From Thalassovita litoralis (GTDB lineage: Bacteria > Pseudomonadota > Alphaproteobacteria > Rhodobacterales > Rhodobacteraceae): a stretch of 64,000 bases of DNA. Positions within the stretch are counted from its first letter, which is position 1; each line of letters opens with the position of its first letter. Both the position numbers and the translations under genes were made by a program. The DNA lies in NCBI RefSeq assembly GCF_900182725.1, contig NZ_FXTO01000005.1, positions 62,001-126,000 on the forward strand, in the 5' to 3' direction. This document shows positions 14,654 to 30,086 of the stretch, piece after piece. The notes beneath the pieces were generated by a model. That model saw nothing but the letters and a program-made list of their open reading frames with translations, was not told where the DNA came from and made no database searches.

Positions 14654-14673
14654 CCGGCCCGCGTTGGGGCCGG
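14654..14673 (+). promoter_or_regulatory. GC-rich hairpin upstream of TRAP dctP
   Basis: CCGGCCC-GCGTTG-GGGCCGG, a 7-bp stem in the 205-base gap between kinase and dctP. No T-run; it may terminate or process the upstream message. The rest of this gap shows no gene. Confidence 0.4.
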
Positions 14674-14738
14674 ATGGCAGGCTGGTCGGTAGCACCCACC
14701 AGATATTCAATTTCACACAGTCCATGAGGAGGAGGACT

Positions 14739-15881
14739 ATGATGATGACCAAAGCAATTCGGACCGCACTTTTTGGCGGCACCATGCTGGCGCTGGCAGG
14801 CGCGGCACAGGCCGACACACTACGTTATGCCGGTGGCTGGCCGCCGGGTTCCGGCCCGAACGGGGCGCTGGAAAACTATGCCGCCACGCTGGAGGGGAAC
14901 TCTGGCGGGTCACTGAAAATGAAGGTGTTCCCGCTGACGCTGCTGTCTTTTGCAGAAAGCAATGCGGGCCTGAAAGACGGGATCGCGGACCTGTCCACCA
15001 TTCTGACCCCCTATTTTTCGGCAGAATTCCCGACGCTGAACATGGTGTCCGAATTCTCGACCCTGGTCGAACTGGAAGAATACACCAGCGAGCTTAGCTC
15101 CTTGGCGTTTGCGGCGGCGGTGTCGGAATATGTAATCCTGAACTGCCCAAGCTGTCAGGACGAGGTGGCCAAGCAAAATCAGGTCTACATGGGCGCGGGC
15201 ATGACCACGTCTTATGCGCTGCAATGTACCGTCCCTGTCACCTCGCCCGAGGAACTGAAGGGCAAGCGGGTGCGCGCCGGTGGTGCCTATTGGGCGCGTT
15301 GGGCCGAAGCAATGGGCGCCGTTCCGGTGTCGATTTCGATCAACGAAACCTTCGAGGCGCTGAGCCAGGGCGTTCTGGACTGCACCGCATCCAACCCGGC
15401 AGAGCTGATCAACTTTAGCTTCGTGGACGTGGTGAAATACGTCTATCAGGGCATCCCCGGCGGCCAGTTCACCGTGCCGACCATGATCAACCGGGATCGC
15501 TGGCAGGGTCTGACCACCGAAGAACGCACCGCGCTGATGAAATCCAACGCCACGCTGGCGGCGGAAATGACCTGGGTCTATCTGCAAGAAGCCCGCGCCG
15601 GTCTGAAAAAGACCGTCGAAAAGGGTAACTTTGTCGGGCAGGCGGACGCTTCGCTGATCAGCCAGAACCAAGCCTTCATCGAATCCGACCTTGAAGCCAT
15701 CGTGGGCAACTACAAGGACAAGTTCGGCATCGAAAACGGGGCCGAGGCCAGCGCGAAAGTACGCGAACTGGTCGCCCGCTGGAGCGGTCTGGTGCAGGGC
15801 ATTGATAACCCGCAGGCGTTGGCCGATCTGTATTGGAATGAAATCTATTCCAAGGTCGATACCAGCAGCTACGGCATGTGA
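14739..15881 (+). CDS. dctP: TRAP transporter solute-binding protein, DctP family
   Basis: A 380-residue periplasmic binding protein of the third TRAP system. A Sec signal peptide covers about residues 1-25 (ending GAAQA, then DTLRYAGGW). The middle has GKRVRAGGAYWARWAEAMGA with the conserved Arg that binds the substrate carboxylate, and ETFEALSQGVLDCTASNPA. Two Cys pairs are visible (LNCPSCQ; LQC/LDC), unusual for the family and possibly forming disulfides. The start is the first of three consecutive ATGs behind a very strong AGGAGGAGGA ribosome site; upstream in-frame starts lack one. A strong stem-loop follows the stop codon, before dctQ. Confidence 0.93.
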   Translation: MMMTKAIRTALFGGTMLALAGAAQADTLRYAGGWPPGSGPNGALENYAATLEGNSGGSLKMKVFPLTLLSFAESNAGLKDGIADLSTILTPYFSAEFPTLNMVSEFSTLVELEEYTSELSSLAFAAAVSEYVILNCPSCQDEVAKQNQVYMGAGMTTSYALQCTVPVTSPEELKGKRVRAGGAYWARWAEAMGAVPVSISINETFEALSQGVLDCTASNPAELINFSFVDVVKYVYQGIPGGQFTVPTMINRDRWQGLTTEERTALMKSNATLAAEMTWVYLQEARAGLKKTVEKGNFVGQADASLISQNQAFIESDLEAIVGNYKDKFGIENGAEASAKVRELVARWSGLVQGIDNPQALADLYWNEIYSKVDTSSYGM

Positions 15882-15887
15882 TCCTGT

Positions 15888-15919
15888 CCGGGGCGCGGCG
15901 GGCTAACCCCGCGCCCCGG
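15888..15919 (+). promoter_or_regulatory. Strong intercistronic stem-loop between dctP and dctQ
   Basis: CCGGGGCGCGG, a 10-base loop, then CCGCGCCCCGG: a perfect 11-bp GC stem starting six bases after the dctP stop. There is no T-run. It probably stabilises the binding-protein message or dampens the downstream permease genes. Confidence 0.75.
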
Positions 15920-15951
15920 TCTTCTGCCAACCGACAATTCTGGAGAAGAAT

Positions 15952-16488
15952 ATGTTTCAGATTGGTAAGGGGTTGTCCTGGTTGTCGGGATTTGCCTCTG
16001 TCATAGGGACGATTTGCATCATTCTGATGATGCTGCACGTGACCGCTGATGTGACGATGCGCTTTTTGTTCAATATGCCCTTGCCGGGAACGATTACGAT
16101 CGTGGCCCATTATTACATGATCGTCGTTGTCTTTATCGGGCTTGGGGTCGCTGAACGGCAAAGCGCGCATATTTCCGTCGAAGTGGTGACTGACCTGCTG
16201 CCAAAGGCCGCGCAGGGCGTGATTGCCGTTTTGGCCGGGCTGATCACCGCAGGGGCGTTTGGCCTGCTGATGGTGCGCGGCTGGAAAGAGGCGATGTCCA
16301 AAACCGCAATCGGCGCATCCATTGAACAGGGATCGGATATGATTCCGGTCTGGCAAAGCTATTGGGCGCTGCCGCTGGGGGCCGGGCTGATGGTGATGAT
16401 TGCCGTCTATCGTGTGCTGGTTCTGCTGACCGGCAGCGAATGCGGCCTAAGCGAAAATACGGACGAGTTGGAGACTTTGCATGACTGA
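15952..16488 (+). CDS. dctQ: TRAP transporter small permease subunit, DctQ family
   Basis: A 178-residue protein with four predicted membrane segments and the DctQ motif DVTMRFLFNMPLPGT (about residues 37-51) plus RQSAHISVEVV. It couples the binding protein to the large permease. A GGAGAAG ribosome site precedes the ATG. Its last eight bases overlap the start of dctM, which implies coupled translation and equal stoichiometry. Confidence 0.93.
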   Translation: MFQIGKGLSWLSGFASVIGTICIILMMLHVTADVTMRFLFNMPLPGTITIVAHYYMIVVVFIGLGVAERQSAHISVEVVTDLLPKAAQGVIAVLAGLITAGAFGLLMVRGWKEAMSKTAIGASIEQGSDMIPVWQSYWALPLGAGLMVMIAVYRVLVLLTGSECGLSENTDELETLHD

Positions 16489-17788
16489 CGTTGCTATCGG
16501 GTTATCCGGGCTGGGGGCGCTGTTTGTGCTGATCGCCCTGCGCGTGCCGATTGCGGCGGCGCTGATCGGGGTGTCCTTTGTTGGGATCTGGTTCCTGATG
16601 GGCTGGCGCGTGGCGTGGGGATCGCTTGGGGTGATCCCGTATCAGTTCACCGCGAACTGGGTGCTTAGCTCGATCCCGATGTTCCTGTTTCTGGGCTTTA
16701 TCAGCTTTCACACGAACCTGACGCGGGGGTTGTTTCAGGCCGCGCGGGTCTGGTTATCTGCCTTGCCGGGCGGTTTGGCGATTGCGGCCATCTTTGGGTC
16801 GGCTGGGTTCGCGGCTGTGTCTGGGTCGTCCATTGCCTGTTCCGCGGCAATGGGCCGGATCGCTATCCCGGAAATGATGAAACACAAATACCACCCGGAA
16901 CTGGCCACTGGCACGGTTGCTGTGGCGGGAACCATTGGCGCGATGATCCCGCCCTCGATCATTCTGATCCTGTACGGCGTGATTGCGCAGGTATCCATTG
17001 CGCAGCTTTTCCTTGGCGGTATTTCCGCCGGTATCCTGACCGCCATCGGCTATATCGTGGTGGTGCTGGTGCGGGTAAAGCTGAACCCCGATCTGGCCCC
17101 GTCGCGGGATGCCAGCGTGGGTATGGCCGAACGTCTGGCCGCGCTAAAGGAAACATGGCCGATCCTGCTGGTGATGGTGGGGATTTTCGGTGGCTTGTTC
17201 AGCGGTATCTTTACCCCAACCGAAGCCGGGGCCGTGGGGGCGTTTCTGGCCTGTGTGGTGGCAACCCTGAGCCGGGAAATGACGCTTGAACGGTTCCTGA
17301 CCGCCGCGCGCGAAACCATGACGACGACCGCCGCGCTGATTGCCATCGCTGCCGGGGCCAGCCTGCTGACGCGTTTTCTGGCGCTGTCGGGGGCGGGGGA
17401 TTTCCTGTCGGATGCGATTATCGCCGTGGGAACTCAGCCGGTGCTGCTGATGCTGGGCATCGTGTTGGTCTATCTGGTGCTGGGCATGTTCCTTGAACCC
17501 ATCGGGGCAATGCTGCTGACCCTGCCGATCATCCTGCCCGTGGTAGACGAAGCAAACTGGAGCCTGCTGTGGTTCGGTGTTGTGCTGACGAAACTGCTGG
17601 AAATTGGCATGATCACCCCGCCCATCGGTATGAACGTGTTCGTGATCAAGGGCGTCGTCGGCGATCTGGTGAAAACCGGCGCGATTTTCCGGGGCGTGAT
17701 GTGGTTCATCGTGATGGACCTGCTGATCGTGGCCTTGCTGTCCGCCGTGCCGCAACTGATCCTGTATCTGCCGATGACCTTCGGGTGA
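16481..17788 (+). CDS. dctM: TRAP transporter large permease subunit, DctM family
   Basis: A 435-residue polytopic protein. DctM signatures are FAAVSGSSIACSAAMGRIA (about residues 106-124) and GTIGAMIPPSIILILYGVI (about 148-166); a second PP motif region near the C-terminus reads EIGMITPPIGMNVFVIKG. It forms the Na+-driven transport path of the third TRAP system with the two genes before it. A stem-loop separates it from the following acyl-CoA synthetase gene. Confidence 0.95.
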   Translation: MTDVAIGLSGLGALFVLIALRVPIAAALIGVSFVGIWFLMGWRVAWGSLGVIPYQFTANWVLSSIPMFLFLGFISFHTNLTRGLFQAARVWLSALPGGLAIAAIFGSAGFAAVSGSSIACSAAMGRIAIPEMMKHKYHPELATGTVAVAGTIGAMIPPSIILILYGVIAQVSIAQLFLGGISAGILTAIGYIVVVLVRVKLNPDLAPSRDASVGMAERLAALKETWPILLVMVGIFGGLFSGIFTPTEAGAVGAFLACVVATLSREMTLERFLTAARETMTTTAALIAIAAGASLLTRFLALSGAGDFLSDAIIAVGTQPVLLMLGIVLVYLVLGMFLEPIGAMLLTLPIILPVVDEANWSLLWFGVVLTKLLEIGMITPPIGMNVFVIKGVVGDLVKTGAIFRGVMWFIVMDLLIVALLSAVPQLILYLPMTFG

Positions 17789-17799
17789 TTTGAATTGCG

Positions 17800-17825
17800 C
17801 CTGCCCCGGTTCGTGCCGGGGCGGG
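17800..17825 (+). terminator. Stem-loop after the third TRAP dctM
   Basis: CCTGCCCCGG-TTCGTG-CCGGGGCGGG: a 10-bp stem with one G-T pair, 12 bases after the dctM stop. No T-run; partial termination or message processing before the acyl-CoA synthetase gene. Confidence 0.5.
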
Positions 17826-17861
17826 TATCCCCTCTGACTGAATTTGCAAAAGGTGAAATCC

Positions 17862-19448
17862 ATGACACCGCAAGAGCTGACCCAAACCGTCAAACGCGCT
17901 CGCAGCCAAGGCTTAGGCGATCTGTTGCGCCGCAGCGCATCGCGCACCCCGGATAAGATTGCGCTAAGCTTTCGGGACAAGCGCGAGAGCTTCCGCGAAC
18001 TGAATGATGCGGTGAACCGCGCCGCCAACGGGCTGCGGGCGATTGGCATTGAAAAAGGCGACCGCGTTGCCCTGCTGTCCCACAATAACCGCGATTTCGT
18101 GGTGTTGCGCTTTGCGGCTGCCCGCGTGGGGGCCGTGATCACGCCTGTGAATTTCATGCTGAACGCGGATGATGTGGCGTATATTCTGAACCATGCCGGG
18201 GCTTGCGCGATTTTTGCCGAAGATACCCTGTGTGACACCGCCGATCAGGCCATTGCGCAACTGGCGCAGCCGATCACCCGGCGCTTTGCCATTCCGCATT
18301 CCGGTGCGGCGGTCAGCGGCCTGTGGTCGCCGGTTCAGGATGTGTTGTCCAATCCCAATACCACGGAACCGGAACTGGATCTGGACCCCGACGATCCGAT
18401 CCAGATGATGTACACCAGCGGCACGGAATCCCGGCCCAAGGGGGCGTTGCTGACCTCCTCGGCGTTGTATGCGCAATACACCAGCACCATCGTGAATGGT
18501 GGTATGGATGCGGATGACATCGAACTGCACTGCCTGCCGCTGTTCCATTGCGCGCAGTTGGATTGCTTCCTGACGACGGACCTGTATCTGGGCGCCACCA
18601 GCATTGTGCATGATAAGGCCGACCCCGCTGATATGTTGGCCGCGATCGAGGCCGAAGGCGTGACCAAACTGTTCTGCCCGCCTACGGTTTGGATTGCCCT
18701 GCTGCGCCACCCCGATTTCGACAAGCGCGACCTTAGCACCCTGCGTAAGGGTTATTACGGCGCGGCAATCATGCCCACCGCCATTATCGAAGAACTGACC
18801 CAACGCCTGCCGAACCTGAACCTGTATAATTTCTATGGCCAAACCGAAATGGCGCCGATGGCGACCGTGTTGGGGCCGGAAGATCAGCTTCGGAAGCTTG
18901 GGTCGGCGGGGCGGCCTGCGCTGAACGTGGAAACCATGCTGGTCGATGATGATGGCAATCCGGTGCCGGTGGGGGAAATCGGTGAAATCGTTCACCAAAG
19001 CCCGCATTTGATTTTGGGGTATTACAACGACCCGGATAAAACCGCCGAAGCCTTCAAAGGGGGCTGGTTCCACAGCGGCGATTTGGGCCGTTTTGACGAA
19101 GAAGGCTACCTTTACGTCGTCGACCGCAAGAAGGACATGGTGAAAACCGGCGGTGAAAACGTAGCCAGCCGCGAGGTGGAAGAGGTGATTTTCCGCCACC
19201 CGGACGTGGCCGAAGTGGCTGTATTCGGCGTACCCCATCCCAAGTGGATCGAGGCTGTGACCGCCATCGTGGTTGCCAAACCGGGCGTGACCCTACAGGC
19301 CGAGGTGATCGACACCTATTGCCGCGAAAATCTGGCCCATTTCAAAGCGCCCAAACATGTTGCGGTGGTCGACAGCCTGCCGAAAAATGCCAGCGGCAAG
19401 ATCCTGAAACGCGATCTGCGTCAGGTCTATGTCAGCTTGTTTGACTAA
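17862..19448 (+). CDS. Acyl-CoA synthetase / AMP-dependent carboxylic acid-CoA ligase
   Basis: A 528-residue member of the ANL superfamily that activates a carboxylic acid to its CoA ester. The phosphate loop YTSGTESRPKGALL lies at about residues 184-197, NFYGQTEMAPMATVLG gives the adenine/aryl pocket, SGDLGRFDEEGYLYVVDRKK the hinge, and Lys at about 513 (NASGKILKRDLR) is catalytic. In the loop Glu-Ser replaces the usual Thr-Gly, an uncommon form. The ATG at the chosen start has an AAAAGG ribosome site; a longer start six codons earlier is weaker. Its place after the TRAP genes suggests that it activates the imported acid. Substrate not determinable. Confidence 0.9.
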   Translation: MTPQELTQTVKRARSQGLGDLLRRSASRTPDKIALSFRDKRESFRELNDAVNRAANGLRAIGIEKGDRVALLSHNNRDFVVLRFAAARVGAVITPVNFMLNADDVAYILNHAGACAIFAEDTLCDTADQAIAQLAQPITRRFAIPHSGAAVSGLWSPVQDVLSNPNTTEPELDLDPDDPIQMMYTSGTESRPKGALLTSSALYAQYTSTIVNGGMDADDIELHCLPLFHCAQLDCFLTTDLYLGATSIVHDKADPADMLAAIEAEGVTKLFCPPTVWIALLRHPDFDKRDLSTLRKGYYGAAIMPTAIIEELTQRLPNLNLYNFYGQTEMAPMATVLGPEDQLRKLGSAGRPALNVETMLVDDDGNPVPVGEIGEIVHQSPHLILGYYNDPDKTAEAFKGGWFHSGDLGRFDEEGYLYVVDRKKDMVKTGGENVASREVEEVIFRHPDVAEVAVFGVPHPKWIEAVTAIVVAKPGVTLQAEVIDTYCRENLAHFKAPKHVAVVDSLPKNASGKILKRDLRQVYVSLFD

Positions 19449-19553
19449 ACCTTGATTGATCTCTGGTCCGGTAAAACATACCGGGCCAGAGGATACAGCG
19501 ACCAGCGTACACAAAAGACGTGCAGTTCCGGGCAAAGCGGATAAGCTGAGCCT

Positions 19554-21104
19554 ATGAAACGGTTTGTGATGTTTTTTGCGACTCTGGTCTTTGGTGTGAC
19601 CATTGCCATTTTTCTGGCGCGGCTGATGTTTCCCTTGCCCGATATTTCGGATCGCGGGCAGGCGCGGGCGTTGGGGGTCGATCCGGAAACACCCTTGGGC
19701 CGGATGATGATTGCCGGGGGGGCTGCACATCCCGGACAATCCGGTGTGATTCCATTGTATAACGGGCATGATGCGCTGGTCAGCCGTTTGGCGCTGGTGG
19801 ATGCCGCAGTGCAATCCATCGACATGCAATATTACATCTGGCACGGCGACACATCGGGGATGCTGCTGCTGGATGCGCTGGATCGGGCGGCAAAGCGGGG
19901 CGTGCGGGTGCGTCTGTTGCTGGATGACAACGGCATTCACGGGCTGGACCCGATTTTAGCGGCGCTGAATGCGCGGGAAAATTTCCAGATCAGGCTGTTT
20001 AACCCATCCCCGCTGCGCCGCCCGAAGATGCTGGGATATGCCTTTGATTTCTTTCGTATGAACCGGCGTATGCACAATAAATCCATCGTCGTTGACGGTG
20101 CGGTGTCGATCATTGGTGGTCGCAACATTGGCGATGAATATTTCCAACTGGGCGACGATATTTTCTTTGTGGATCTGGATGTGCTGGCCACAGGGGCCAT
20201 CGTGCCGGAAACGGCGGCGGTGTTTGATGCCTATTGGAACAGCCAATCGGTGTTTGAACTGGAACGGATCGTTACTGGCCCCGGCGACCCGGCGGGATTT
20301 GCCGTGCGGGTTGCGGCGGTGAAAGACAGCACAGAAGCCGCACAGTTGCAGGGCGCGATGCAAAACAGCATGGAGCGTTTTGCCAGTGGTGGTTTGACCC
20401 CGGAATGGGCCAAGGTGCAGTTGGTGGCAGACGACCCCGCCAAAGGACAGGGGATTGCGACCCGCGATCAATTGATGATTACGCGGCTTGGCTCGATCCT
20501 TGGGCGGATTGAACAGAAGCTGGATTTGGTGTCCGCCTATTTTATACCGGGACAAGAAGGGACCAGATATTTTGGCGATCTTGCCCGCGATGGCAAAACC
20601 GTGCGGGTTCTGACCAACGCGCTGAATACCACCGATGTGCCGATGGTGCATTCCGGGTATACTAAATATCGGCGCGAATTGTTGCGGGCCGGGGCCACGC
20701 TGTATGAATTGAAACTACGGGGCGAAATGACCCCCGAGGCAGGATTTCAGGTCAACCCGCTGGGGTTTTCCGGGGGCAGCTTGCACGCGAAAACCTTTGC
20801 CGTGGATGATGCGCGGATTTTTATCGGGTCGTTCAACTTTGACCCACGGTCTGCCATGTTGAATTGTGAAATGGGATTTTTGATCGACAGCCCCACCTTG
20901 GCGCAGGGGATCGGGGCCATATTCGATGGGCCGGTTGCCACGGTCAGCTATCGGCCGGAACTGACGCCCGAGGATAAAATGGTCTGGCAGGAAATCCGCA
21001 GCGATGGCACGCGCGTGACCTATCAGGAAGAACCGGGGGCCACATGGTTCCAGCAAATCATGCTGGTGGTGATGGGGCTGTTGCCAGTGGAATGGATGCT
21101 GTAG
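19554..21104 (+). CDS. Phospholipase D family protein, cardiolipin-synthase C-like
   Basis: A 516-residue membrane-anchored protein of the PLD superfamily. Residues 5-27 are one hydrophobic anchor. The two HKD catalytic motifs are intact: HNKSIVVDGAVSIIGGRN (174-191) and HAKTFAVDDARIFIGSFNFD (411-430). Length, anchor and DPRS-AMLNCEMGF after HKD2 resemble ClsC (YmdC)-type cardiolipin synthases, which make cardiolipin from phosphatidylglycerol and phosphatidylethanolamine; a phospholipase role is possible. It stands between the acyl-CoA synthetase and the ACP-P450 cassette, all on the same strand, with 147 bases before the ACP. Whether it belongs to that cassette is unclear. Confidence 0.85.
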   Translation: MKRFVMFFATLVFGVTIAIFLARLMFPLPDISDRGQARALGVDPETPLGRMMIAGGAAHPGQSGVIPLYNGHDALVSRLALVDAAVQSIDMQYYIWHGDTSGMLLLDALDRAAKRGVRVRLLLDDNGIHGLDPILAALNARENFQIRLFNPSPLRRPKMLGYAFDFFRMNRRMHNKSIVVDGAVSIIGGRNIGDEYFQLGDDIFFVDLDVLATGAIVPETAAVFDAYWNSQSVFELERIVTGPGDPAGFAVRVAAVKDSTEAAQLQGAMQNSMERFASGGLTPEWAKVQLVADDPAKGQGIATRDQLMITRLGSILGRIEQKLDLVSAYFIPGQEGTRYFGDLARDGKTVRVLTNALNTTDVPMVHSGYTKYRRELLRAGATLYELKLRGEMTPEAGFQVNPLGFSGGSLHAKTFAVDDARIFIGSFNFDPRSAMLNCEMGFLIDSPTLAQGIGAIFDGPVATVSYRPELTPEDKMVWQEIRSDGTRVTYQEEPGATWFQQIMLVVMGLLPVEWML

Positions 21105-21175
21105 GGCTGCGCTATCTTACGCGTGTCCGTTTGATCGAATGCGCGGTCTGCGCCGCAGATGCGACCAGATATAGT

Positions 21176-21200
21176 GGGTTTTCACATTGACGAAAAACCC
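21176..21200 (+). promoter_or_regulatory. Inverted repeat GGGTTTT-N11-AAAACCC before the ACP gene
   Basis: Perfect 7-base arms with an 11-base spacer in the gap between the phospholipase D gene and the acyl carrier protein gene. It may terminate the former or be an operator of the cassette that follows. Confidence 0.4.
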
Positions 21201-21251
21201 CCGGATACCGGCCCCAAAACCGTGTTTGCCGGTACAACGCCTGAAATCCAC

Positions 21252-21524
21252 ATGCCACTCTCTCTTGATGAAATCACCCAGCTTCTTTTGACAAAGCTGC
21301 AAGATCATAATGTTCACCCCGATGTTGACCTGAGCGCGGAAAACATGGGCGCTATCACCATCGGTCAACTGGCCTTGGACAGTCTGGACCTGTTGCAATT
21401 CGCGATGGATGTCGAGGACGAACTGGACATCGAAAGCGACGTGGCCGAATTCCCTGCCGATGCGACCTTGCTGGATCTGGCCGCGCATTTCCACGAACTG
21501 CACACCGGTCCCACCCATGACTGA
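21252..21524 (+). CDS. Stand-alone acyl carrier protein
   Basis: A 90-residue, acidic, all-helical protein with the 4'-phosphopantetheine attachment motif LALDSLDLLQF (Ser44 in DSLD) and the acidic recognition helix that follows (DVEDELDIESD). It is not the housekeeping AcpP: it is divergent and lacks fab neighbours. The ATG was chosen because the conserved domain starts there; upstream in-frame codons read non-conserved sequence. Its end overlaps the start of the P450-like gene by eight bases, the classic sign of coupled synthesis. It probably carries an acyl chain on which the following enzymes act. Confidence 0.85.
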   Translation: MPLSLDEITQLLLTKLQDHNVHPDVDLSAENMGAITIGQLALDSLDLLQFAMDVEDELDIESDVAEFPADATLLDLAAHFHELHTGPTHD

Positions 21525-22467
21525 AGGCGGCGCGACCCCTGCCGTGGTTCTATGGGAAGACGCCGCGTTGGACGCCTTGGGCGCGCGCGGGATGCAGGCC
21601 TTTTCGATGGCGGATGCCTATCGGGATATGGTTGCGAAAACCGGGCTGGATCTATCCGCGACAATTCGGCTTTTGGATGCTTTGCCGGTGTTCCTGTCCG
21701 GGACCGTCCACAAGCAACAGCGGCGGGATATGGCCGTGGCGTATGCAGCGGGCAAGACCGAACAGGAAGCTGCGGTTTTGCAGTTTTTTGATCAGCTTCG
21801 TGGCCGAATGGCGGGGCAGACAGGCACATGGGATGTGCTGGCAGAATTGGCGCACCCGATCTGGGACACGTTACGCCGCACGATCCTGCCGGGCAAAGAA
21901 CCGTGGTACGATCTGATTGATCAGTTGCCGGATTTGTTTAATCCCAAAACCAGCCTGCGTAAGCGCGTAAAGCTGAACGATCAACTGACCCAGATGTTGC
22001 AGGGCGAAGCGCCGGATTTTCTGAATCGGCTGTCGCTGGTCGTGCTGGGTGCGCGGCCTTTGACGCATTCGTTGGCGTTGTCGGTTCACGCCTTGGCGCA
22101 GGCCCATCCGGGGTGTCGTTTGCGCGATATTCCTGTACCGGACAGTTTCCCCGACAGCGCGCTGCGCTTTGTGGATCGTGTGGCCGGGCAATCCGATACT
22201 GCGAATGGCTGCCCCTATCACGCCGGGGAACGCGTGCGCTGTGTCACCTTTGATGAATCCTATGATCCGGCATGGAATGCCCGCAATCTGTATGGGCTGG
22301 GCGCGCATGTTTGTTTGGGGCGACCCATTTCACAGTTTATCTGGCAACAGGTGCAGGGCTTGTTTGCGCAAAGCGACAAGATCATTTTCCCCGATGTGAT
22401 CGAAATTGAAAACCGCGAACCGTTTCGGTTGGCCGCCGTCTGCAAGGTCCGGCTGTGTGACGGCTGA
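21517..22467 (+). CDS. Divergent, shortened cytochrome P450-like protein
   Basis: A 316-residue protein whose C-terminal YGLGAHVCLGRPIS (259-272; heme-ligand Cys266) matches the P450 cysteine loop. Other hallmarks are degenerate. The I-helix segment reads LGARPLTHS (177-185), without the acid-alcohol pair of AGxE/DTT. The K-helix ExxR reads SALR (214-217), having lost the Glu. The protein is 80-100 residues shorter than usual (about 400), mostly at the N-terminus. The ATG overlaps the ACP gene by eight bases, and the next gene overlaps this one. By analogy with P450s such as BioI that act on acyl-ACP, it may bind the acyl-ACP, but the missing residues argue against ordinary monooxygenase chemistry. 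P450 assignment rests mainly on the Cys loop. Confidence 0.7.
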   Translation: MTEGGATPAVVLWEDAALDALGARGMQAFSMADAYRDMVAKTGLDLSATIRLLDALPVFLSGTVHKQQRRDMAVAYAAGKTEQEAAVLQFFDQLRGRMAGQTGTWDVLAELAHPIWDTLRRTILPGKEPWYDLIDQLPDLFNPKTSLRKRVKLNDQLTQMLQGEAPDFLNRLSLVVLGARPLTHSLALSVHALAQAHPGCRLRDIPVPDSFPDSALRFVDRVAGQSDTANGCPYHAGERVRCVTFDESYDPAWNARNLYGLGAHVCLGRPISQFIWQQVQGLFAQSDKIIFPDVIEIENREPFRLAAVCKVRLCDG

Positions 22468-23404
22468 GCTAACACAGATAACCCTGAGCGAGTATCATTC
22501 GCCCCAGCAGCACAAGGACATCCGCCTTGCCGCGCGGGTATTCATGGGGCAACCACAGGTTCAGCGCAAACTGGCCTATCTGGTTCTGGTGGAACTGGCA
22601 AAATACGCCGATCCGCTGTTTCCCGACATGCTGGATTATCTGGACCGCCATGACTCAAACCCGCGCACGGCAGCGTTTCGTCAGACTGTGGCGTTGGAAT
22701 ATCAGAAGGTCAAGGAGGTGCTGGCCACCTGTCCGCCAGCGTTTCTTCGGCAATTCGAGCAGGATTTGCTGACGCCTAATAAGCCCATGCTGATGCGTGG
22801 CACCGATCCCGCAAAGCCGCTGATCGTGGTGTTTACCACGATGTTCAACAATTTTTACCTGTCCAATCTGGCGCTGTCGGCCTTGTTGCTGGACCGGGGG
22901 TATTCCGTGTTGTTGCTAAAGGATAGCAGCGGCTACCAATATCTGAACGGCATTCCGGGGCTGGGGGCTACGTGGGACGCAGCCATTGCCCGGATCGGCC
23001 AAATCGCGGGCGATGAAGGGCGAGGCGTGGTTGTGACCGGGTTTTCCTCGGGCGGGTATGCGGCGGGATTGGCCGCCTTGGCCCTGCGCCCCCAATTATA
23101 TGTCGGGTTTTCGATCTCGGGCAATCTGTCCCCGGACACGGACCTGCCGATGCCCAAGCTGTTCACCGCAGAAAACCGGGCGCAAACTCCGGCAGGGTTG
23201 CGGCGGGATCTGGTGCCGGAATTCCGCGAAACCGGGCAGCCCGCGCGGCTGTTTGCGGGTACGAAAAGCCTGACTGATCTGGCCCATATCCGGGCCTTTG
23301 ACGGGGTGGCGCATGTTGAACAGCATGTGATGGACAACGAAGGCCACGTCACCATCCGCCCGCTGTTTATGACGGATCGGCTGACAGATTGTTTTGTGGT
23401 CTGA
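22457..23404 (+). CDS. Alpha/beta hydrolase-fold protein with helical N-terminal region
   Basis: A 315-residue protein. Residues about 1-115 are mostly helical and unrecognised. From about 120 an alpha/beta hydrolase core is seen: PLIVVFTTMF, then the nucleophile elbow VVVTGFSSGGYAAG (191-204, Ser197), and a possible catalytic His in MDNEGHVTIRP near the C-terminus. A thioesterase or esterase releasing an acyl group from the ACP would fit, but this is inference. The GTG start overlaps the P450-like gene by 11 bases; an AAGG ribosome site lies upstream. The sulfotransferase gene follows after 29 bases. Confidence 0.72.
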   Translation: MTAELTQITLSEYHSPQQHKDIRLAARVFMGQPQVQRKLAYLVLVELAKYADPLFPDMLDYLDRHDSNPRTAAFRQTVALEYQKVKEVLATCPPAFLRQFEQDLLTPNKPMLMRGTDPAKPLIVVFTTMFNNFYLSNLALSALLLDRGYSVLLLKDSSGYQYLNGIPGLGATWDAAIARIGQIAGDEGRGVVVTGFSSGGYAAGLAALALRPQLYVGFSISGNLSPDTDLPMPKLFTAENRAQTPAGLRRDLVPEFRETGQPARLFAGTKSLTDLAHIRAFDGVAHVEQHVMDNEGHVTIRPLFMTDRLTDCFVV

Positions 23405-23433
23405 TCAGGGAACAGGGGCGGAACCAGTCACCT

Positions 23434-24288
23434 ATGCAACGTCAATTCGTTCTGTGCCTTGGTGCCAGCAAAAGCGGCACCACATGGCTGTATCACTATC
23501 TGAAATCATACGATTTCGCGGATATGGGCATACGGAAAGAATATAATGCGCTGTGTCCCCTGTTCGGTATGGAAAGCGGAGCAGGAGAGGTGAAGCCCCC
23601 CAACCTGAATAGCCCCCTTGGGCAAAAGATCGCGCGTGATCAGGCTGTTGTGAAACGCATGGGGCAGTCACTGGAAAACTATGTGCAACATTTTGACGAT
23701 CTTCTGCAAAACGGTAAAAAGCTGAGCGGGGATATTTCCCCCAGCTATATCAGGATAAGCGCAGCACAGTTGACCAGTGTCAGGCAGGCGTTTCTGGACA
23801 GGGGGATACGCCCTGTCACGGTGCTTTTGCTGCGTGATCCCATTGCGCGGATTTTATCCGCTGCCCGTATGGCACAGCGGTTGCGAGTGATCCGTATCGC
23901 CGGTCGCACGGGGCGAAACAGCAGCTTTGCGGAATTGGTGGATGTGATCGCGCGGCATCATTTCACGGATTACAAAACAGTGATCCAGCGGGTTGAACGT
24001 GCCGCCCCGCCCGAAGCCCGTTTCATTTACCCTTATGAACAGTTCATTTCCCCAGACGGGGTGTCGGCCTTTTCACATGTGCTGGGCATTCCCCCGCGCT
24101 TTGGGCTGTTGGACAAACATGTAAACAGCAATGGGCCGCAGGGGGCAGGTGAAATGCCCGAGGTGAATATCGCCGGGCTGCGGTCGCAATTGGCCGAACA
24201 ATATGCGTTTTGCAGCGATTATTTTCAGGCGCGTGGGATTGCGTTGGACTGGACATTCGCCAGCGCCCGAAGCGCGCCCCGCCTGTGA
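23434..24288 (+). CDS. Sulfotransferase (PAPS-dependent)
   Basis: A 284-residue cytosolic-type sulfotransferase that moves a sulfo group from PAPS to a hydroxyl or amine. The 5'-phosphosulfate loop LGASKSGTTWLYHYL lies at about residues 9-23, a KEY motif (GIRKEYNAL) provides the candidate catalytic Lys-Glu, GDISPSY follows, and the 3'-phosphate motif LLLRDPIARILSAAR is near 131-145. A membrane anchor is absent. It ends the ACP-P450-hydrolase cassette and is followed by a hairpin, so the final product of the cassette may be a sulfated lipid or small molecule. Confidence 0.87.
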   Translation: MQRQFVLCLGASKSGTTWLYHYLKSYDFADMGIRKEYNALCPLFGMESGAGEVKPPNLNSPLGQKIARDQAVVKRMGQSLENYVQHFDDLLQNGKKLSGDISPSYIRISAAQLTSVRQAFLDRGIRPVTVLLLRDPIARILSAARMAQRLRVIRIAGRTGRNSSFAELVDVIARHHFTDYKTVIQRVERAAPPEARFIYPYEQFISPDGVSAFSHVLGIPPRFGLLDKHVNSNGPQGAGEMPEVNIAGLRSQLAEQYAFCSDYFQARGIALDWTFASARSAPRL

Positions 24289-24308
24289 CCAATGCCATCA
24301 TGATAACA

Positions 24309-24331
24309 TCGGGGCGCCACGGACGCCCCGA
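24309..24331. terminator. Hairpin between convergent sulfotransferase and CoA-transferase genes
   Basis: TCGGGGCG-CCACGGA-CGCCCCGA: an 8-bp perfect stem between two convergent genes. No long T-run, yet position and stability suit a bidirectional terminator. Confidence 0.6.
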
Positions 24332-24338
24332 CGCTGTA

Positions 24339-25433
24339 TCAGTCTGCGGTTGGCAGGGCTGGCACCGGGCCATAGGCGCGGTCCTCCCCGGCCACCCGTG
24401 CCGCAGGGGCGGGGAAGGAAACCGGGCCGTTGGGCGTGTCGACCGTGATCCGCCGCAAATGCGGGTGGTCGGACAGGCCCGCCATGTCGTTGACGGTCGC
24501 CAGTGCCACGTCAGCCTGTAGCAATGCCGCGATGGCATCGTCTTTGTCGCGGCGGGCAAATGCCTTGGCGACCAGCGCATCGGTTTGGGTGCGGTTGGTG
24601 ACACGGGCCACATTGGTGGCAAAGCGCGGATCGGTGCCCAGACTTTCGTCCTGTAAAAACACGCGGGCCAGATTGCGCCATTCCCGGTCGCTTTGGATCG
24701 AAATCAGGATGTCCTGCCCGTCGTGGGTGCGGAACACGCCATAGGGCGAAATCGACGGATGCGCCATGCCGATCCGTTTCGGGCTTTTGCCGCCTTCGTG
24801 GTTCAGCAGCGGCACGGTCAGCCAGTCAGCCATCACGTCAAACATAGAGATAGCGATTTGCGCCCCCTTGCCGGTGATACCACGCTGAATCAGCGCCTCC
24901 AGAATGGCGGCATGGGCGGTGGCCCCGGTGGCAATATCCACGATGGACAGGCCCACGCGTGCGGGTTCGGATGGGCCGCCAGTGATCGAACACAGACCCG
25001 ATTCCGCCTGAATCAGCAGATCATAGGCCTTGCGATCCGCCATCGGGCCGTCTTCGCCATACCCGGAAATCGAGCAGGTGATCAGCCGGGGATAATCCCG
25101 TACCAACCTGTCCGTGCCAAATCCCAGCCGGTCCAGCGCACCGCGTTTCAGGTTTTGCACCAGCACATCCGCCCCGGCCAAAAGCTGTTCCAGTTCCGCC
25201 TTGCCCTTGGGCGTGGACAGATCCAACACGACCGAGGTTTTCCCCCGGTTCAGCCAGACGAAATAGCTGGATTGCCCCTTGGCCACGTCATCATAGCCAC
25301 GGGCGAAATCGCCTTCGGGGCGTTCGATCTTGATCACCTCGGCCCCGGCATCGGCCAGCCGGGACGTTGCAAAAGGCGCGGCCACCGCTTGTTCGATGGC
25401 CACAACCTTCAGTCCGCTGAGGGGGAGCGTCAT
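24339..25433 (-). CDS. Class III CoA-transferase (CaiB/BaiF family)
   Basis: A 364-residue enzyme that moves CoA from one carboxylic acid to another. Typical features are LKVVAIEQAVAAPFATSRLAD at the N-terminus (CoA binding), EVIKIERPEGD, the LNRGKTSVVLDL segment and the candidate nucleophilic Asp138 in RKAYDLLIQAESG. The C-terminal region is the usual interlocked-ring half. It is somewhat shorter than the 400-residue family norm. Its start codon shares one base with the stop of the acyl-CoA dehydrogenase (TGATG), so both are one translational unit. The pair probably activates and then oxidises a short-chain acid; substrate unknown. Confidence 0.9.
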   Translation of the reverse strand: MTLPLSGLKVVAIEQAVAAPFATSRLADAGAEVIKIERPEGDFARGYDDVAKGQSSYFVWLNRGKTSVVLDLSTPKGKAELEQLLAGADVLVQNLKRGALDRLGFGTDRLVRDYPRLITCSISGYGEDGPMADRKAYDLLIQAESGLCSITGGPSEPARVGLSIVDIATGATAHAAILEALIQRGITGKGAQIAISMFDVMADWLTVPLLNHEGGKSPKRIGMAHPSISPYGVFRTHDGQDILISIQSDREWRNLARVFLQDESLGTDPRFATNVARVTNRTQTDALVAKAFARRDKDDAIAALLQADVALATVNDMAGLSDHPHLRRITVDTPNGPVSFPAPAARVAGEDRAYGPVPALPTAD

Positions 25434-26596
25434 CAGAACGACCTCGGCAGGCCCAGAACGTGCTGACCGACAAAGCTGAGGATCATGTTCGTGGAAATCG
25501 GGGCCACCTGATACAGGCGGGTTTCGCGGAATTTGCGTTCAACGTCGTATTCTTCGGCAAATCCGAAACCGCCGTGGAACTGGATACAGGCATTCGCCGC
25601 TTCCCAGCTTGCCTTGGCGGCCAGATATTTCGCCATGTTGGCCTGTGCGCCGCAGGGTTCGTTGGTGTCATACAGGCGGCAGGCCTCGAACCGCATCAGG
25701 TTGGCTGCTTCGGTTTCGATATAGCTTTCGGCGATGGGGAATTGCACGCCTTGGTTCTGGCCAATGGGGCGGCCAAAAACGACGCGTTCGTTCACATATT
25801 TGGTCACGCGATCAATGAACCAATAGGAATCCCCGATACATTCCGCAGCAATCAGCACGCGTTCGGCATTCAGCCCGGACAGCAGATGCTTGAACCCCTG
25901 ACCTTCGGTCCCGATCAGATTTTCCGCCGGGATTTCCAGATCGTCAAAGAACAATTCGTTGGTTTCGTGGTTCACCATGTTAGCGATGGGTTTCACGGTC
26001 AGGCCGTTTTTCTGCGCCTCTTTGATGTCGACGATAAAGATCGACATGCCATCGGACGGCTTGCGGCAGTCTTCCAGCGGGGTGGTGCGGGCCAGAAGGA
26101 TCATGATGTCCGAATGCAGCACCCGGCTGATGAAGACTTTTTGCCCGTTAACGATGTATTTATCGCCCTTTTTCACCGCTGTGGTTTTCAGCTTCGTGGT
26201 GTCGGTGCCGGTGGTGGGTTCGGTCACGGCCATGGATTGCAGGCGCATTTCACCCGCCGCGATGGGGCGCAGATATTTGTCTTTCTGCGCCTGCGAGCCG
26301 TATTTGATCAGTGTGTTGATCACATACATCTGGCCATGACAGGCCCCGGAATTCCCGCCCGAGCGGTTGATTTCTTCCATGATCACGGACGCTTCGGCCA
26401 GACCCAGACCCGATCCGCCGAATTCTTCGGGGATCAGCGCGGCCATCCAGCCCTCGCGGACCAGCGCATCTACGAATTCTTCGGGATAGGCTTTTTCCTG
26501 ATCAACCTTGCGGTGATATTCGTCAGGGAACTGGGCGCACAGGGCGCGCACGCCATCACGGATGTCCTGATACTGGTCGGGGGTTTGCTGGATCAT
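25433..26596 (-). CDS. Acyl-CoA dehydrogenase
   Basis: A 387-residue flavoprotein that introduces an alpha,beta double bond into an acyl-CoA and passes electrons to ETF. Recognisable parts are LIPEEFGGSGLGLAEA, the FAD/substrate motif MAVTEPTTGTDTT, and the C-terminal FHGGFGFAEEYDVER. The usual catalytic Glu in YEGT is absent (YQVAPIST there); a Glu at about 245 in GLNAERVLIAA sits where isovaleryl-CoA dehydrogenase has its base, pointing to an IVD-like enzyme. The start has an AAAGG site; a longer upstream frame lacks homology. First gene of the pair with the CoA-transferase. Confidence 0.93.
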   Translation of the reverse strand: MIQQTPDQYQDIRDGVRALCAQFPDEYHRKVDQEKAYPEEFVDALVREGWMAALIPEEFGGSGLGLAEASVIMEEINRSGGNSGACHGQMYVINTLIKYGSQAQKDKYLRPIAAGEMRLQSMAVTEPTTGTDTTKLKTTAVKKGDKYIVNGQKVFISRVLHSDIMILLARTTPLEDCRKPSDGMSIFIVDIKEAQKNGLTVKPIANMVNHETNELFFDDLEIPAENLIGTEGQGFKHLLSGLNAERVLIAAECIGDSYWFIDRVTKYVNERVVFGRPIGQNQGVQFPIAESYIETEAANLMRFEACRLYDTNEPCGAQANMAKYLAAKASWEAANACIQFHGGFGFAEEYDVERKFRETRLYQVAPISTNMILSFVGQHVLGLPRSF

Positions 26597-26650
26597 GGGG
26601 GCGCCTTTGTCAGTAAAGATGAATGATGTGGTTTGTGGCGCAGTTTGGTC

Positions 26651-26665
26651 GATACAGGGGGTATC
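26651..26665. repeat. Small inverted repeat in the divergent gap before the lipoprotein gene
   Basis: GATAC-N5-GTATC, in the 268-base AT-rich gap between the acyl-CoA dehydrogenase and lipoprotein genes. The gap also contains A/T-rich runs that could serve as promoters. No gene is seen in it. Confidence 0.25.
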
Positions 26666-26864
26666 CTGCAAATATATATTATGGCTAGATTCCATATATC
26701 AGAATTATATCATGGCCTGCGCGGCACAGGATCAGGCCGTGTTTTACAGGCGCGAACCGGGGCGGTGTCGTCAGGCGGGAATTTTGACGATAGGGTCAAT
26801 CCCACACATACCTGTTTGATTCGAATGGGTTGGGAAGTGCGACATGTATCAAGGGATTTGATCT

Positions 26865-27197
26865 ATGCAGGGAAACCGCAACAGAACGGTGAATATTCGG
26901 GCGGGCCGGATTGGGAAATTGGGGCTTTGTTTGCCCGCTGCGCTGTTCGGGTTGGCGGCCTGCACTGAACCCGTTCCTGTTGATCCCTACAGCACCGATG
27001 CGGGGTTCCTGACCAAGGTGCCGGAACAGGTGGTCACGCTGGCCGCGCCCTATCAAAGCCTGGAAGCCGTGCGCATCAACCCGGCGGATGGGTGCTATTG
27101 GTATCGCCACAAAGGCCCGGTTGAAACCACGATGCTGCCGCTGCGCACCGCCGGGGGGAACCCGATTTGCACAGCGGCGGGGGCTAAACCGTCCTGA
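26865..27197 (+). CDS. Small putative lipoprotein
   Basis: A 110-residue protein of unknown function. A signal sequence with a lipobox (FGLAAC, Cys33) indicates lipid attachment after signal peptidase II cleavage. The mature part of about 78 residues has EPVPVDPYSTDAGF and CYWYRHKGPVETTMLPL, with two further Cys (in DGCYW and NPICTA) that may pair. The stop codon directly abuts that of the convergent L,D-transpeptidase gene. An envelope role is a guess from that neighbour. Confidence 0.7.
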   Translation: MQGNRNRTVNIRAGRIGKLGLCLPAALFGLAACTEPVPVDPYSTDAGFLTKVPEQVVTLAAPYQSLEAVRINPADGCYWYRHKGPVETTMLPLRTAGGNPICTAAGAKPS

Positions 27198-27854
27198 TCA
27201 ACTGGTGGCGGTGATCCGGTCCTCGGGCGGGTACAAATAGGCGGTAACGCCCGTATCGACCTGTTCATACAGGCCGATGATATGGGCCATGACCATGCGT
27301 ACACAGCCCGAACTGGCCCGCCCGCCGATGGTGCGCTGATACGGCGTGCCGTGAATCCGCAAATAGGTATCACGGTTTCCGGTGTACAGATACAACGCCC
27401 GTGATCCCAAGGGGTTGGTCGGCCCACCGGGAACACCGTTGCGGAATTGCGAATAGGTGTCCGGGTCGCGTGCAATCATGTTTGCGGTCGGGGTCCAGCC
27501 GGGCCATTTTGCCTTGCGGCGGATGGTATAAGTGCCGGGATCGTACAGATTGCCTTTGGCGATGGCCACGCCATAGCGCATGGCGGTGCCGTCCGTGCCG
27601 ATGTGGTATAGATACCGCGCCACGGCATCGACGTGAATATCCCCGGCCCGCAGCCCGTCATTGGCCTGTACCCGAACCGGCAAAAACCGCGGATGCAGCC
27701 CCCACGGGTTCGTGGTGGACGGATCGTAATTGTCTGGCGTGACCTGCGCATCCCAGGCATCCCAGCTATTTTTACCTGCGGCAAAGGCCGGGCTGGCCAG
27801 AGGTGCAGAAAACAGGGCGGCCGTCGTCTGAATGAAATGTCGTCTGGTCAGCAT
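27198..27854 (-). CDS. L,D-transpeptidase (YkuD domain)
   Basis: A 218-residue periplasmic enzyme that forms 3-3 cross-links in peptidoglycan or attaches proteins to it. The N-terminus is a Tat-type signal (LTRRHFIQTTAALFSAPL, with ASPAFAAG at the cleavage zone). The YkuD catalytic region shows RIHGTPYQRTIGGRASSGC with His168 and nucleophile Cys184. The family consensus SHGC is SSGC here, a common variant. The sequence between (PGTYTIRRKAKWPGWTPT) is also typical. It is a single gene, end-to-end with the lipoprotein gene; 184 bases separate it from the next gene, with nothing notable in them. Confidence 0.93.
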   Translation of the reverse strand: MLTRRHFIQTTAALFSAPLASPAFAAGKNSWDAWDAQVTPDNYDPSTTNPWGLHPRFLPVRVQANDGLRAGDIHVDAVARYLYHIGTDGTAMRYGVAIAKGNLYDPGTYTIRRKAKWPGWTPTANMIARDPDTYSQFRNGVPGGPTNPLGSRALYLYTGNRDTYLRIHGTPYQRTIGGRASSGCVRMVMAHIIGLYEQVDTGVTAYLYPPEDRITATS

Positions 27855-28038
27855 CGCAGGCTCCTTCGTGGCGAATGGGCCGGGATGGACCCATCTGAAA
27901 ATGACTTAACGCGAAAGAGCCGCAACAGGTTGCGGGAATCGACCAACAATTTCGTGTCAGGGGCGTTTTGACTCGGGCCTGTTGCAGCGGGGCTGCATAT
28001 GGTGGCCCCGGCTGGCACGGGTTTGCCCGGTCACGGCG

Positions 28039-28491
28039 TCAGGATGGCCGCAGATTGCGCCGCGCGGTGACATCGCGGTGGGTGATCCGCTTGCCTGTGC
28101 GTGCATCGGTCAGAATGGGCTGAATCGGTTCGCCGGTTTCCCGTGACAACAGCGTAATCGCGGTGGTATCGGGGGCTGGTACGTTTTCATCGGCCCACGC
28201 AATCAGCGACACCAGCACCGGATACAGCGCCTTGCCCCTGTCGGTCAGGCGATATTCAAACCGGGGTGGGCGGTCCTGATACTGATCGCGCCGCAGCACG
28301 CCCGCCGTTTCCAGTTTGCGCAACCGATCCGCCAGCACATGCCGGGTGATCCCCAGCCGGTCCTGCATCTGTTCAAACCGGCGTATTCCCAAAAAGCAAT
28401 CGCGCAGGACAAGCATGGTCCAGCGGTCGCCAATCACGGACAGGCCGCGCGCGACAGGGCAGGCATCGGTTCCAAGGTCATCCCATTTCAT
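28039..28491 (-). CDS. HxlR family transcriptional regulator
   Basis: A 150-residue winged-helix protein. CPVARGLSVIGDRWTMLVLR near the N-terminus with Cys11 is the HxlR signature; RLGITRHVLADRLRKLETAG forms the recognition helices and PPRFEYRLTDRGKALYPVL the wing. Such proteins sense aldehydes, quinones or redox state, often through that Cys. It is divergent from a MATE efflux gene with an inverted repeat between, so it probably represses the pump. Confidence 0.92.
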   Translation of the reverse strand: MKWDDLGTDACPVARGLSVIGDRWTMLVLRDCFLGIRRFEQMQDRLGITRHVLADRLRKLETAGVLRRDQYQDRPPRFEYRLTDRGKALYPVLVSLIAWADENVPAPDTTAITLLSRETGEPIQPILTDARTGKRITHRDVTARRNLRPS

Positions 28492-28510
28492 ACCGGCATC
28501 CTACACCAAG

Positions 28511-28556
28511 TTGACAGGTTCTGAAAAGGAACTTACTGATGATGTCAGTTCCTTTT
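28511..28556 (+). promoter_or_regulatory. Inverted repeat operator in the HxlR/MATE promoter region
   Basis: AAAAGGAAC (28524-28532), 15 bases, GTTCCTTTT (28548-28556): perfect 9-base arms. A consensus-like TTGACA lies at 28511-28516, so the repeat covers the likely -10 region of the MATE gene promoter. A natural HxlR operator. Confidence 0.6.
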
Positions 28557-28598
28557 TGGAACTATGCTTATCTTTCGCCATTCGATCAAAGGACAGCC

Positions 28599-30017
28599 AT
28601 GCCCGATAGTTCTGCCGCCCCGCAGGGAAAGCCCGATCCGGTGCTTACCCCCAAAGCACAGGCTGCCACGGCAGCCCGCCTAGCCCGGACCCGGCTGCTG
28701 TTGGATGGCCGCATTGGCCCGACCCTGACAAAACTGGCTGCGCCCAATGTTCTGGCGATGGTGGTTCAGGCCATCATGAGCATCGCCGAGGGCTATATCG
28801 CCAGCAAGCTGGGCGTCGCGGCCTTGGCGGGTCTGGCGCTGGTGTTTCCGCTGGTGATGCTGACACAAATGCTGTCTGCCGGGTCGATGGGGGGCGCGAT
28901 TTCATCTGCCGTGGCACGGGCATTAGGGGCCGAAGATACCGACCGCGCGGCGGCACTGACACTGGCGGCATGGGTGATTGCCGCCGGGCTGGCGTTGGTT
29001 TTCATGATCGTCATGGCGGTGTTCGGGCGACCCATATTTGAATTGCTGGGTGGCACTGGTCCTGCCGCCGATGCTGCGCTGACCTATGCCAGCGTGTTCT
29101 TTCCGGGCTGCCTGGCGCTGTGGCTGTGTCATTCGACGCTCAGCGTTATTCGGGGATCGGGGAATATGGGGGTGCCATCGGTGGTTCTGCTGCTGGTGTC
29201 GGTTCTGACGATTCCGTTGGCGGCGGGGTTTGCGCTGGGGCTTGGGCCGCTGCCTGCGTTGGGTATGGCAGGGCTGGCGTTGGGCACCGTCATTGCGCAT
29301 GGGGCCGGGGCGTTGGCAGCGTTTGCCTATCTGGCGTCGGGTCGAACAGGGCTGACGCTGCGGGCGGGATGGCCCCGTGCCGCGATGTTCGCAGATATTT
29401 TGCGGGTGGGTGTTCTGGCCTCGGCCAATTCGGCGCTGACGGTGCTGACTATCGTGCTGATGGTGGGGGCCGTGGGCCGTCACGGGCAGGCGGCTTTGGC
29501 CGGGTATGGGCTGGGCGCCCGGTTAGAGTTTCTGATGATCCCCGTGGTGTTTGGTATCGGGTCGGCCATGACGGCAATGGTCGGGGCGAATATTGGCGCG
29601 GGCCATACCCGGCGGGCGCTGGCTGTGGCGTGGACCGGATCGCTGGCGGCGGCTGCCATTGTCGGCAGTATCGGTGCGGTGGTGGCCATTGTCCCGGATC
29701 TGTGGCTGCGTATGTTCCTGTCCGCCGAGGAAACGGCCGCTTTGGCTGCGGGGCGCAGTTATTTCCGTATCGTTGCGCCGTTTTACGGGTTTTTCGGCAT
29801 GGGTCTGGCGCTGTATTTCGCCAGTCAGGGTGCGGGCCGGATGACGTGGCCGTTTCTGGGAAGCGTCGCCCGGATCGGGGTGGCTTTTGGCGGGGCGGTG
29901 TGGCTTAGCCAAACCACCGATCTGGGTGTCAGCGCGGTTTTCATCGCCATCGGCGCTGGCATGTGCATCTATGGTGTGGTGATTGCGGGGTCTGTCGCGA
30001 TCCTGAAGTGGCGATAG
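28599..30017 (+). CDS. MATE family multidrug efflux transporter
   Basis: A 472-residue inner-membrane protein with about 12 membrane segments in two related halves, exporting cationic compounds in exchange for Na+ or H+. Recognisable parts are GPTLTKLAAPNVLAMVVQA at the first helix, VSVLTIPLAAGFALGLGPLP, and GVLASANSALTVLTIVLMV starting the second half. The ATG used has an AAAGGA ribosome site; an upstream in-frame start would add 20 poorly conserved residues. It is controlled most likely by the divergent HxlR gene. Confidence 0.93.
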   Translation: MPDSSAAPQGKPDPVLTPKAQAATAARLARTRLLLDGRIGPTLTKLAAPNVLAMVVQAIMSIAEGYIASKLGVAALAGLALVFPLVMLTQMLSAGSMGGAISSAVARALGAEDTDRAAALTLAAWVIAAGLALVFMIVMAVFGRPIFELLGGTGPAADAALTYASVFFPGCLALWLCHSTLSVIRGSGNMGVPSVVLLLVSVLTIPLAAGFALGLGPLPALGMAGLALGTVIAHGAGALAAFAYLASGRTGLTLRAGWPRAAMFADILRVGVLASANSALTVLTIVLMVGAVGRHGQAALAGYGLGARLEFLMIPVVFGIGSAMTAMVGANIGAGHTRRALAVAWTGSLAAAAIVGSIGAVVAIVPDLWLRMFLSAEETAALAAGRSYFRIVAPFYGFFGMGLALYFASQGAGRMTWPFLGSVARIGVAFGGAVWLSQTTDLGVSAVFIAIGAGMCIYGVVIAGSVAILKWR

Positions 30018-30086
30018 GTGCAAAATATGCGGCGGTTTTGTCGTTCTATTCTGGTTTGAACCGCCGCGATAGAGTAGCCATGTGCT

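Follow-up and report, generated by a model that had tools for sequence, protein, structure and literature searches.

A carrier protein paired with a miniature P450-like protein and a swappable third enzyme in Thalassovita litoralis

Do the four closely packed genes for an acyl carrier protein (ACP), a P450-like protein, an alpha/beta hydrolase and a sulfotransferase in a 64,000-nucleotide stretch of the Thalassovita litoralis genome (contig NZ_FXTO01000005.1; hereafter the window, at its full length) serve a single pathway? A sequence-only reading had taken them for one unit, in which an acyl chain tethered to a dedicated ACP is modified, released and sulfated. We find that the conserved unit consists of the carrier, the miniature P450 (mini-P450) and a swappable third enzyme, and that the sulfotransferase is a local addition. 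We propose, with a probability of roughly 55%, that the cassette is a carrier-tethered oxidation module, in which the mini-P450 oxidises a carrier-bound acyl chain, the hydrolase releases the product and the sulfotransferase may sulfate it.

All four genes lie on the + strand at 21252-24288. The ACP and P450-like genes overlap by 8 bases and the P450-like and hydrolase genes by 11, and a gap of 29 bases separates the hydrolase from the sulfotransferase, just as had been described. Their products and the residues discussed below are the following (aa, amino acids; PAPS, 3'-phosphoadenosine-5'-phosphosulfate).

21252-21524, + strand: ACP gene, a free-standing acyl/peptidyl carrier protein, 90 aa; Ser44 in ALDSL (21381-21383); Pfam PP-binding
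21517-22467, + strand: miniature P450-like, probably heme-thiolate protein, 316 aa; Cys266 (22312-22314) in GAHVCLGR
22054-22059, + strand: R180-P181 of the P450-like protein, at the I-helix acid-alcohol position
22457-23404, + strand: alpha/beta hydrolase, 315 aa, GTG start; Ser197, Asp274 and His297 invariant
23434-24288, + strand: PAPS-dependent-type sulfotransferase, 284 aa; motifs K13-x-G15-TT-W18 and R134-D135-P136...S142

The carrier and P450-like genes form a conserved pair

The gene-neighbourhood check covered 20 core loci: 14 from whole-genome searches, the window included, and six from a species-genome collection, which gave 13 loci, seven of them on contigs equal in length to ones already found and counted once. 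The carrier gene directly adjoins the P450-like gene in all 20, so the pairing of these homologous genes is more than chance. The P450-like gene precedes the ACP gene except in the window and in genome G411, where the ACP comes first; the P450-like proteins of these two are sisters on the P450 tree (support 98/99). The control comprised 68 other loci that weak P450 matches or PF00067 had retrieved, with exact duplicates left out. An ACP lies in the flanks of two of them versus 14 of 14 family loci, a comparison biased toward the family because the ACP profile was built from it. One of the two ACP-positive controls (L034) is the tandem relative in G341, with its own ACP; the tandem relative in G187 (L029) was left out of both the family and the control list.

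The window carrier matches the Pfam PP-binding model over the cut-off (E 5e-05). The modifiable serine that the sequence-only reading required of it is present as Ser44, and 20 of the 21 carriers have a serine aligned there; the odd one out, L094, comes from a metagenome-assembled genome (MAG) whose hydrolase is also split over two frames. The idea of a conserved cassette holds for the carrier and P450-like genes (20/20) and, in 15 of the 20 loci, for the hydrolase as third gene, but not for the sulfotransferase (1/20). We conclude that the conserved unit is the carrier, the mini-P450 and a swappable third enzyme.

The P450-like protein keeps heme-site residues

Taken alone, the window P450-like protein has no Pfam match at E<=1 and, as a single sequence against the PDB, hits no P450; an initial single-protein scan of genome contigs likewise gave no match. 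PF00067 was found at E<=1 in none of five proteins, the window protein and four scanned relatives; the distant tandem relative, that of G187, matches it at 2.4e-13. The family profile, built from 12 relatives, gave 345 PDB matches at E<=10 (best 4.3e-12), of which the best 60 are P450s, P450BioI-ACP (3ejb) included; an Oxy protein, NzeB and NascB, among the matches listed, are presumably P450s too. Profile-profile alignment by hhalign of the family with ordinary P450s from the genus (nine rows, eight distinct genes, L081 = L153) reached E 1.9e-13. The AlphaFold2 (AF2) model of the window protein, with a predicted local distance difference test (pLDDT) score of 86.1 and a predicted template-modelling score (pTM) of 0.83, adopts a P450 fold. 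Foldseek of this model returned a best E of 8.8e-10, and the best 50 of 1361 rows are P450s, as we take CalO2 and RufO, among the rows listed, to be. Of six matches in a viral structure library at E<=0.001, one carries no name and the others are P450s or P450-like.

All 20 members retain His65, Arg69, Arg221 and Cys266 (window numbering), two of them having been read over two frames for the residue counts; we assume that these positions correspond to heme contacts in P450s. At the heme-ligand loop (FxxGxxxCxG), the GxGxHxCxG columns are invariant in a seven-row alignment, the cysteine is found in all 20 members, and the window sequence reads YGLGAHVCLGR, with Tyr replacing Phe. The family profile, predicted fold and conserved residues show the window protein to be a homologue of the P450s that has kept heme-site residues, in line with its earlier description as a P450-like heme-Cys protein. 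In G197 and G727 the gene runs over two frames (L013:8839-9877 and L088:7662-8692), by decay or sequencing error.

The third gene is exchanged

The window hydrolase matches Pfam weakly and under the cut-off (Abhydrolase_6, E 0.011), yet the call as a hydrolase stands for both the GxSxG motif and the triad, with Ser197, Asp274 and His297 invariant in 9/9 and 6/6 alignment rows. Searched with its low-confidence model, the best 50 of 1298 structure matches are mostly known alpha/beta hydrolases, and those listed include polyketide-shortening enzymes and one thioesterase domain. Strong sequence matches (>340 bits) occur in five of 198 genomes, all with the P450 cassette, the next match scoring 56 bits; because these five genomes helped build the hydrolase profile, with at most 11 candidates scored per genome, the informative part is the lack of other strong matches.

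Elsewhere the third place is taken differently. In G123 it is held by a PF00975 thioesterase, and in L099, labelled a Bradyrhizobium MAG, the carrier is fused to a non-ribosomal peptide synthetase (NRPS) condensation domain, PF00668 (6936-8576; E 4.7e-70), directly after the mini-P450; both domains fit a release or transfer step. The third genes of G197, G411 and L102 encode unnamed proteins that are mutually related (phmmer among 136 sequences, 1.1e-7 to 1.4e-3). A lipid-A-type acyltransferase, to which they bear a by-eye likeness, was rejected: neither G197 nor G411 had any Pfam match at E<=10, the sole match of L102, to RRP40_S1 (E 0.17), is unrelated, the PDB profile search yielded no acyltransferase, and single-sequence hhalign with the acyltransferase end found in G848 was negative. 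The third gene of G411, the sister of the window, is a different one, which supports one exchange at the least. Further exchanges can be argued only to a limited extent, given long branches; the label 'hydrolase' needs five changes on the P450 tree, a number as low in 252 of 500 shuffles, and shows no clustering beyond the shuffles.

The condensation domain of L099 also lends weight to a different substrate, an amino acid or aryl acid loaded onto the carrier by an adenylating enzyme of the NRPS type, so that the P450 would modify an aminoacyl rather than a fatty acyl group. An AMP-binding ligase beside the tandem P450-like gene and carrier of G187 points the same way. The window cassette, however, has no adenylation gene, the ligase at 17844-19448 is of the fatty-acyl-CoA-synthetase type, and a hydrolase is the usual third gene (15/20). 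We regard loading of this kind as rather unlikely.

The sulfotransferase is a local addition

Against Pfam, the window sulfotransferase remains under the cut-off (E 0.025), and it is through its relatives that the assignment is upheld. Sulfotransfer_1 is matched at E<=0.01 by seven of 11 alignment members (the window is one of the 11 and not of the seven), the family profile matches PDB entry 3rnl (E 7.8e-09), and K13, G15, W18, R134-D135-P136, R139 and S142 are invariant in all 11 rows. The K13/G15/W18 and R134-D135-P136/R139/S142 motifs are, we presume, PAPS-binding.

The gene adjoins the cassette in one of 20 loci. A family match was recorded in 71 of 198 genomes of the taxonomic family, the window's own included, and the ~1.5 kb flanks of the 19 best-scoring other sulfotransferase loci contain no ACP, P450 or hydrolase gene. 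Being beside so few cassettes, and belonging to a widespread family without cassette genes in its flanks, the sulfotransferase is a local addition. The sequence-only reading had treated all four genes as a unit, which scattering in relatives would undo; such scattering is in part what we see, and the 1/20 count lends no support to an ancestral four-gene unit.

The added gene is possibly functional with the cassette, as a hydroxyl made by the P450 would be a plausible sulfation site; a sulfated lipid or signal is then a possible, putative product. Alternatively, the sulfotransferase is an unrelated co-transcribed passenger that acts on a cell-surface or polysaccharide substrate. Its rarity beside cassettes, its many homologues and their flanks all suit a passenger, as does G411, the closest P450 relative of the window, which has no sulfotransferase beside its cassette. 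Against it stand the 29-base gap, in which the promoter scan found no promoter-like site, the shared strand, the convergent next gene and the natural target that a P450-made hydroxyl would offer. We regard a passenger as a serious possibility that falls a little short of an even chance.

A model for oxidation on the carrier

Because a P450 homologue with heme-site residues, a carrier with its serine and a conserved unit come together, modification of an acyl chain on the dedicated ACP, followed by release, is the best reading of the cassette; this part of the sequence-only reading survives, whereas the sulfotransferase lies outside the conserved unit. In the model that we propose, an acyl (or aminoacyl) group would be bound to the dedicated carrier in thioester linkage. 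The mini-P450 would dock onto the neighbouring carrier and oxidise the bound group, hydroxylation being the simplest reaction, as with P450BioI on ACP chains. The alpha/beta hydrolase would release the product from the carrier or hand it to an acceptor, and in other lineages a thioesterase, a condensation domain or an unnamed protein would act in its place. In this genome, the sulfotransferase joined at the end of the cassette could sulfate the new hydroxyl.

Several findings weigh against oxidation and release on the carrier. The cassette contains no ligase, redox partner or desaturase gene. The hydrolase model is weak (pLDDT 57), its thioesterase role being putative, and the three unnamed third genes have no assignable function. 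P450BioI-acyl-ACP chains account for 12 of the best 50 of 1361 Foldseek rows (query TM-score, TMq, 0.65-0.71), a number inflated by several chains per PDB entry, and eryF (0.70) and CYP109B4 (0.69) are about level with them; the ranking does not settle the nearest P450 to the mini-P450, the predicted fold itself being that of a P450. The K-helix ExxR motif, present in 9/9 rows of ordinary P450s, is not conserved: the family shows a gap opposite ExxR in the profile alignment, the family has 41-42 residues in the stretch running from the I-helix acid to Arg221, and an E..R pattern occurs in three of 20 members, at differing places and not in the window. The I-helix alcohol is absent in 19 of 20 members (A 11, P 7, G 1, S 1, T 0), the acid position being occupied by D/E in 17, Q in one and R in two.

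Such losses, taken with the shortness of the protein, could indicate a degenerate scaffold or a heme sensor, binding the carrier and oxidising nothing; the P450 chains in the best 50 of 1361 Foldseek rows (359-416 residues) exceed it by 43-100 aa. The retention of His65, Arg69, Arg221 and the cysteine in all members, in an intact predicted fold, would be hard to explain without heme. Moreover, Thr occupies the I-helix position in only three of eight distinct ordinary P450s of the genus; as five of the eight lack it, absence of the alcohol alone says little and does not prove inactivity, and we dropped it as an unusual feature. We consider a scaffold or sensor improbable. The ordinary P450s of the genus (L076-L082, L151-L153) vary at the acid-Thr position, for example N-E or E-N for E-T.

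Arg-Pro at this position is confined to the window protein and its sister in G411 (2/20) and occurs in none of the eight ordinary P450s. Since Pro is common in the family (7/20), it is mainly the Arg that needs explaining; the pair in the window may be functional or may have arisen by chance.

Distribution and surroundings of the cassette

In the search of the taxonomic family, 61 of 394 genomes matched at E<=0.001, 12 with full-length members (G197 in two frames) and 49 weakly or partially. The class search matched 46 of 385 genomes (three full-length, including the window's own, with G727 in two frames; 43 weak) and added two members, and the phylum sample matched 29 of 398 (one full-length, the window itself) and added none; with at most five candidates scored per genome, the family, class and phylum counts are lower bounds. 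Within the genus, three of nine genomes matched, the window's own alone at full length. The patchy distribution points to gain and loss, or else to horizontal transfer, and speaks against a housekeeping role; with full-length members in only 12 of 394 family genomes and one of nine genus genomes, a biotin-type (BioI) role was rejected. A weak match in G812 proved false, lying in an 830-aa protein without cassette genes. G076 was rejected as a clean empty site: it shares the CaiB (77%) and acyl-CoA dehydrogenase (74%) genes, the insertion edges are undefined, and no other window gene from 12000-32000 matched its 18 kb region.

Outside the core set, G187 (L089:6636-13015) and G341 (L154:7130-9630) have tandem P450-like genes, where one 750-aa frame contains two P450-like halves and a carrier gene follows. 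Besides its AMP-binding ligase, the G187 locus has a tetratricopeptide repeat (TPR) protein whose end weakly resembles a lipid-A acyltransferase (E 0.21). In G848, from another class of the phylum, L149:462-6034 comprises a radical S-adenosylmethionine (SAM)-like gene (by eye), an ordinary-looking P450 and a 375-aa P450-like gene, beside which lies a TPR protein that has a domain resembling lipid-A acyltransferases (E 6.6e-05); no carrier gene was found on this 6.9 kb contig.

Upstream of the window cassette lies, as had been noted, a phospholipase D (PLD)-domain gene (19554-21104; Pfam E 2.7e-32), for which all cardiolipin-synthase models remained under the cut-off. The second gene upstream is the AMP-ligase at 17844-19448, and the genes downstream, for a CoA-transferase (CaiB) and an acyl-CoA dehydrogenase, run opposite to the cassette. 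One flank thus carries a gene resembling, by eye, a tripartite ATP-independent periplasmic (TRAP) transporter subunit together with the acyl-CoA synthetase (16481-19448), the other the CoA-transferase and dehydrogenase (24339-26695); possibly these are parts of an acid-catabolism region split by the PLD gene and the cassette. With a G+C content of 0.54-0.59 in its four genes versus 0.60 in the window, the cassette is not strongly marked as foreign by composition. One further feature follows the sulfotransferase gene.

24309-24331, no strand: perfect 8-bp inverted repeat with a 7-base spacer, in the interval where the sulfotransferase and CaiB genes converge

This repeat has no T-run and is a possible terminator; it is absent from the terminator scan output, and the promoter and terminator scans showed no excess over shuffles.

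Comparison with known systems

A literature search, with most subscription journals and preprints outside its coverage, turned up, among the papers listed, no description of a carrier/mini-P450/third-enzyme gene set. The proteins described here would add a reduced P450 family, none of whose five scanned members the standard Pfam model detects, and the two-gene unit of P450 and carrier, with its differing third enzymes, suggests a little-known form of chain modification on a carrier. The pair also offers a small, testable model for P450-carrier recognition and for the minimal P450 fold required for catalysis.

The NRPS-associated OxyB and OxyA both turn up in the search of the PDB with the family profile. 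We take them to oxidise in trans on a carrier protein, as proposed for the mini-P450; they differ in that the carrier of the window family is free-standing (fused in L099) and directly adjacent, and its P450 reduced. In marine Rhodobacteraceae, a P450 was proposed to modify acyl-homoserine-lactone chains (PMC5479921).

CYP152 peroxygenases are described as having an absolutely conserved Arg-Pro where the acid and Thr would stand (PMC3937522). The window protein and G411 share this pair with CYP152 enzymes (OleT, P450BSbeta, P450SPalpha), but just two of 20 family members have it, and CYP152 substrates are free fatty acids (PMC3937522). No row named CYP152 is found among the best 60 of 345 PDB profile matches. 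We judge it improbable that the window clade is a novel type of carrier-dependent P450 peroxygenase, a minimal heme-thiolate enzyme that would use Arg-Pro for the acid-alcohol pair, act only on an ACP-tethered chain without a redox partner, and be followed by release and sulfation.

P450BioI (CYP107H1) cleaves ACP-linked fatty acids (PMC10741444), and resembles the window protein as a P450 fold working with an acyl carrier protein (TMq 0.65-0.71). The two differ in sequence (14-17% identity) and in length, the P450BioI targets having 378-387 residues; moreover, the window family lacks a conserved ExxR, has its own carrier and, at 12 of 394 family genomes, looks too rare for biotin synthesis. 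P450BioI is nevertheless the closest working analogue, and the mini-P450, which we file under neither CYP107 nor CYP152, may work alike.

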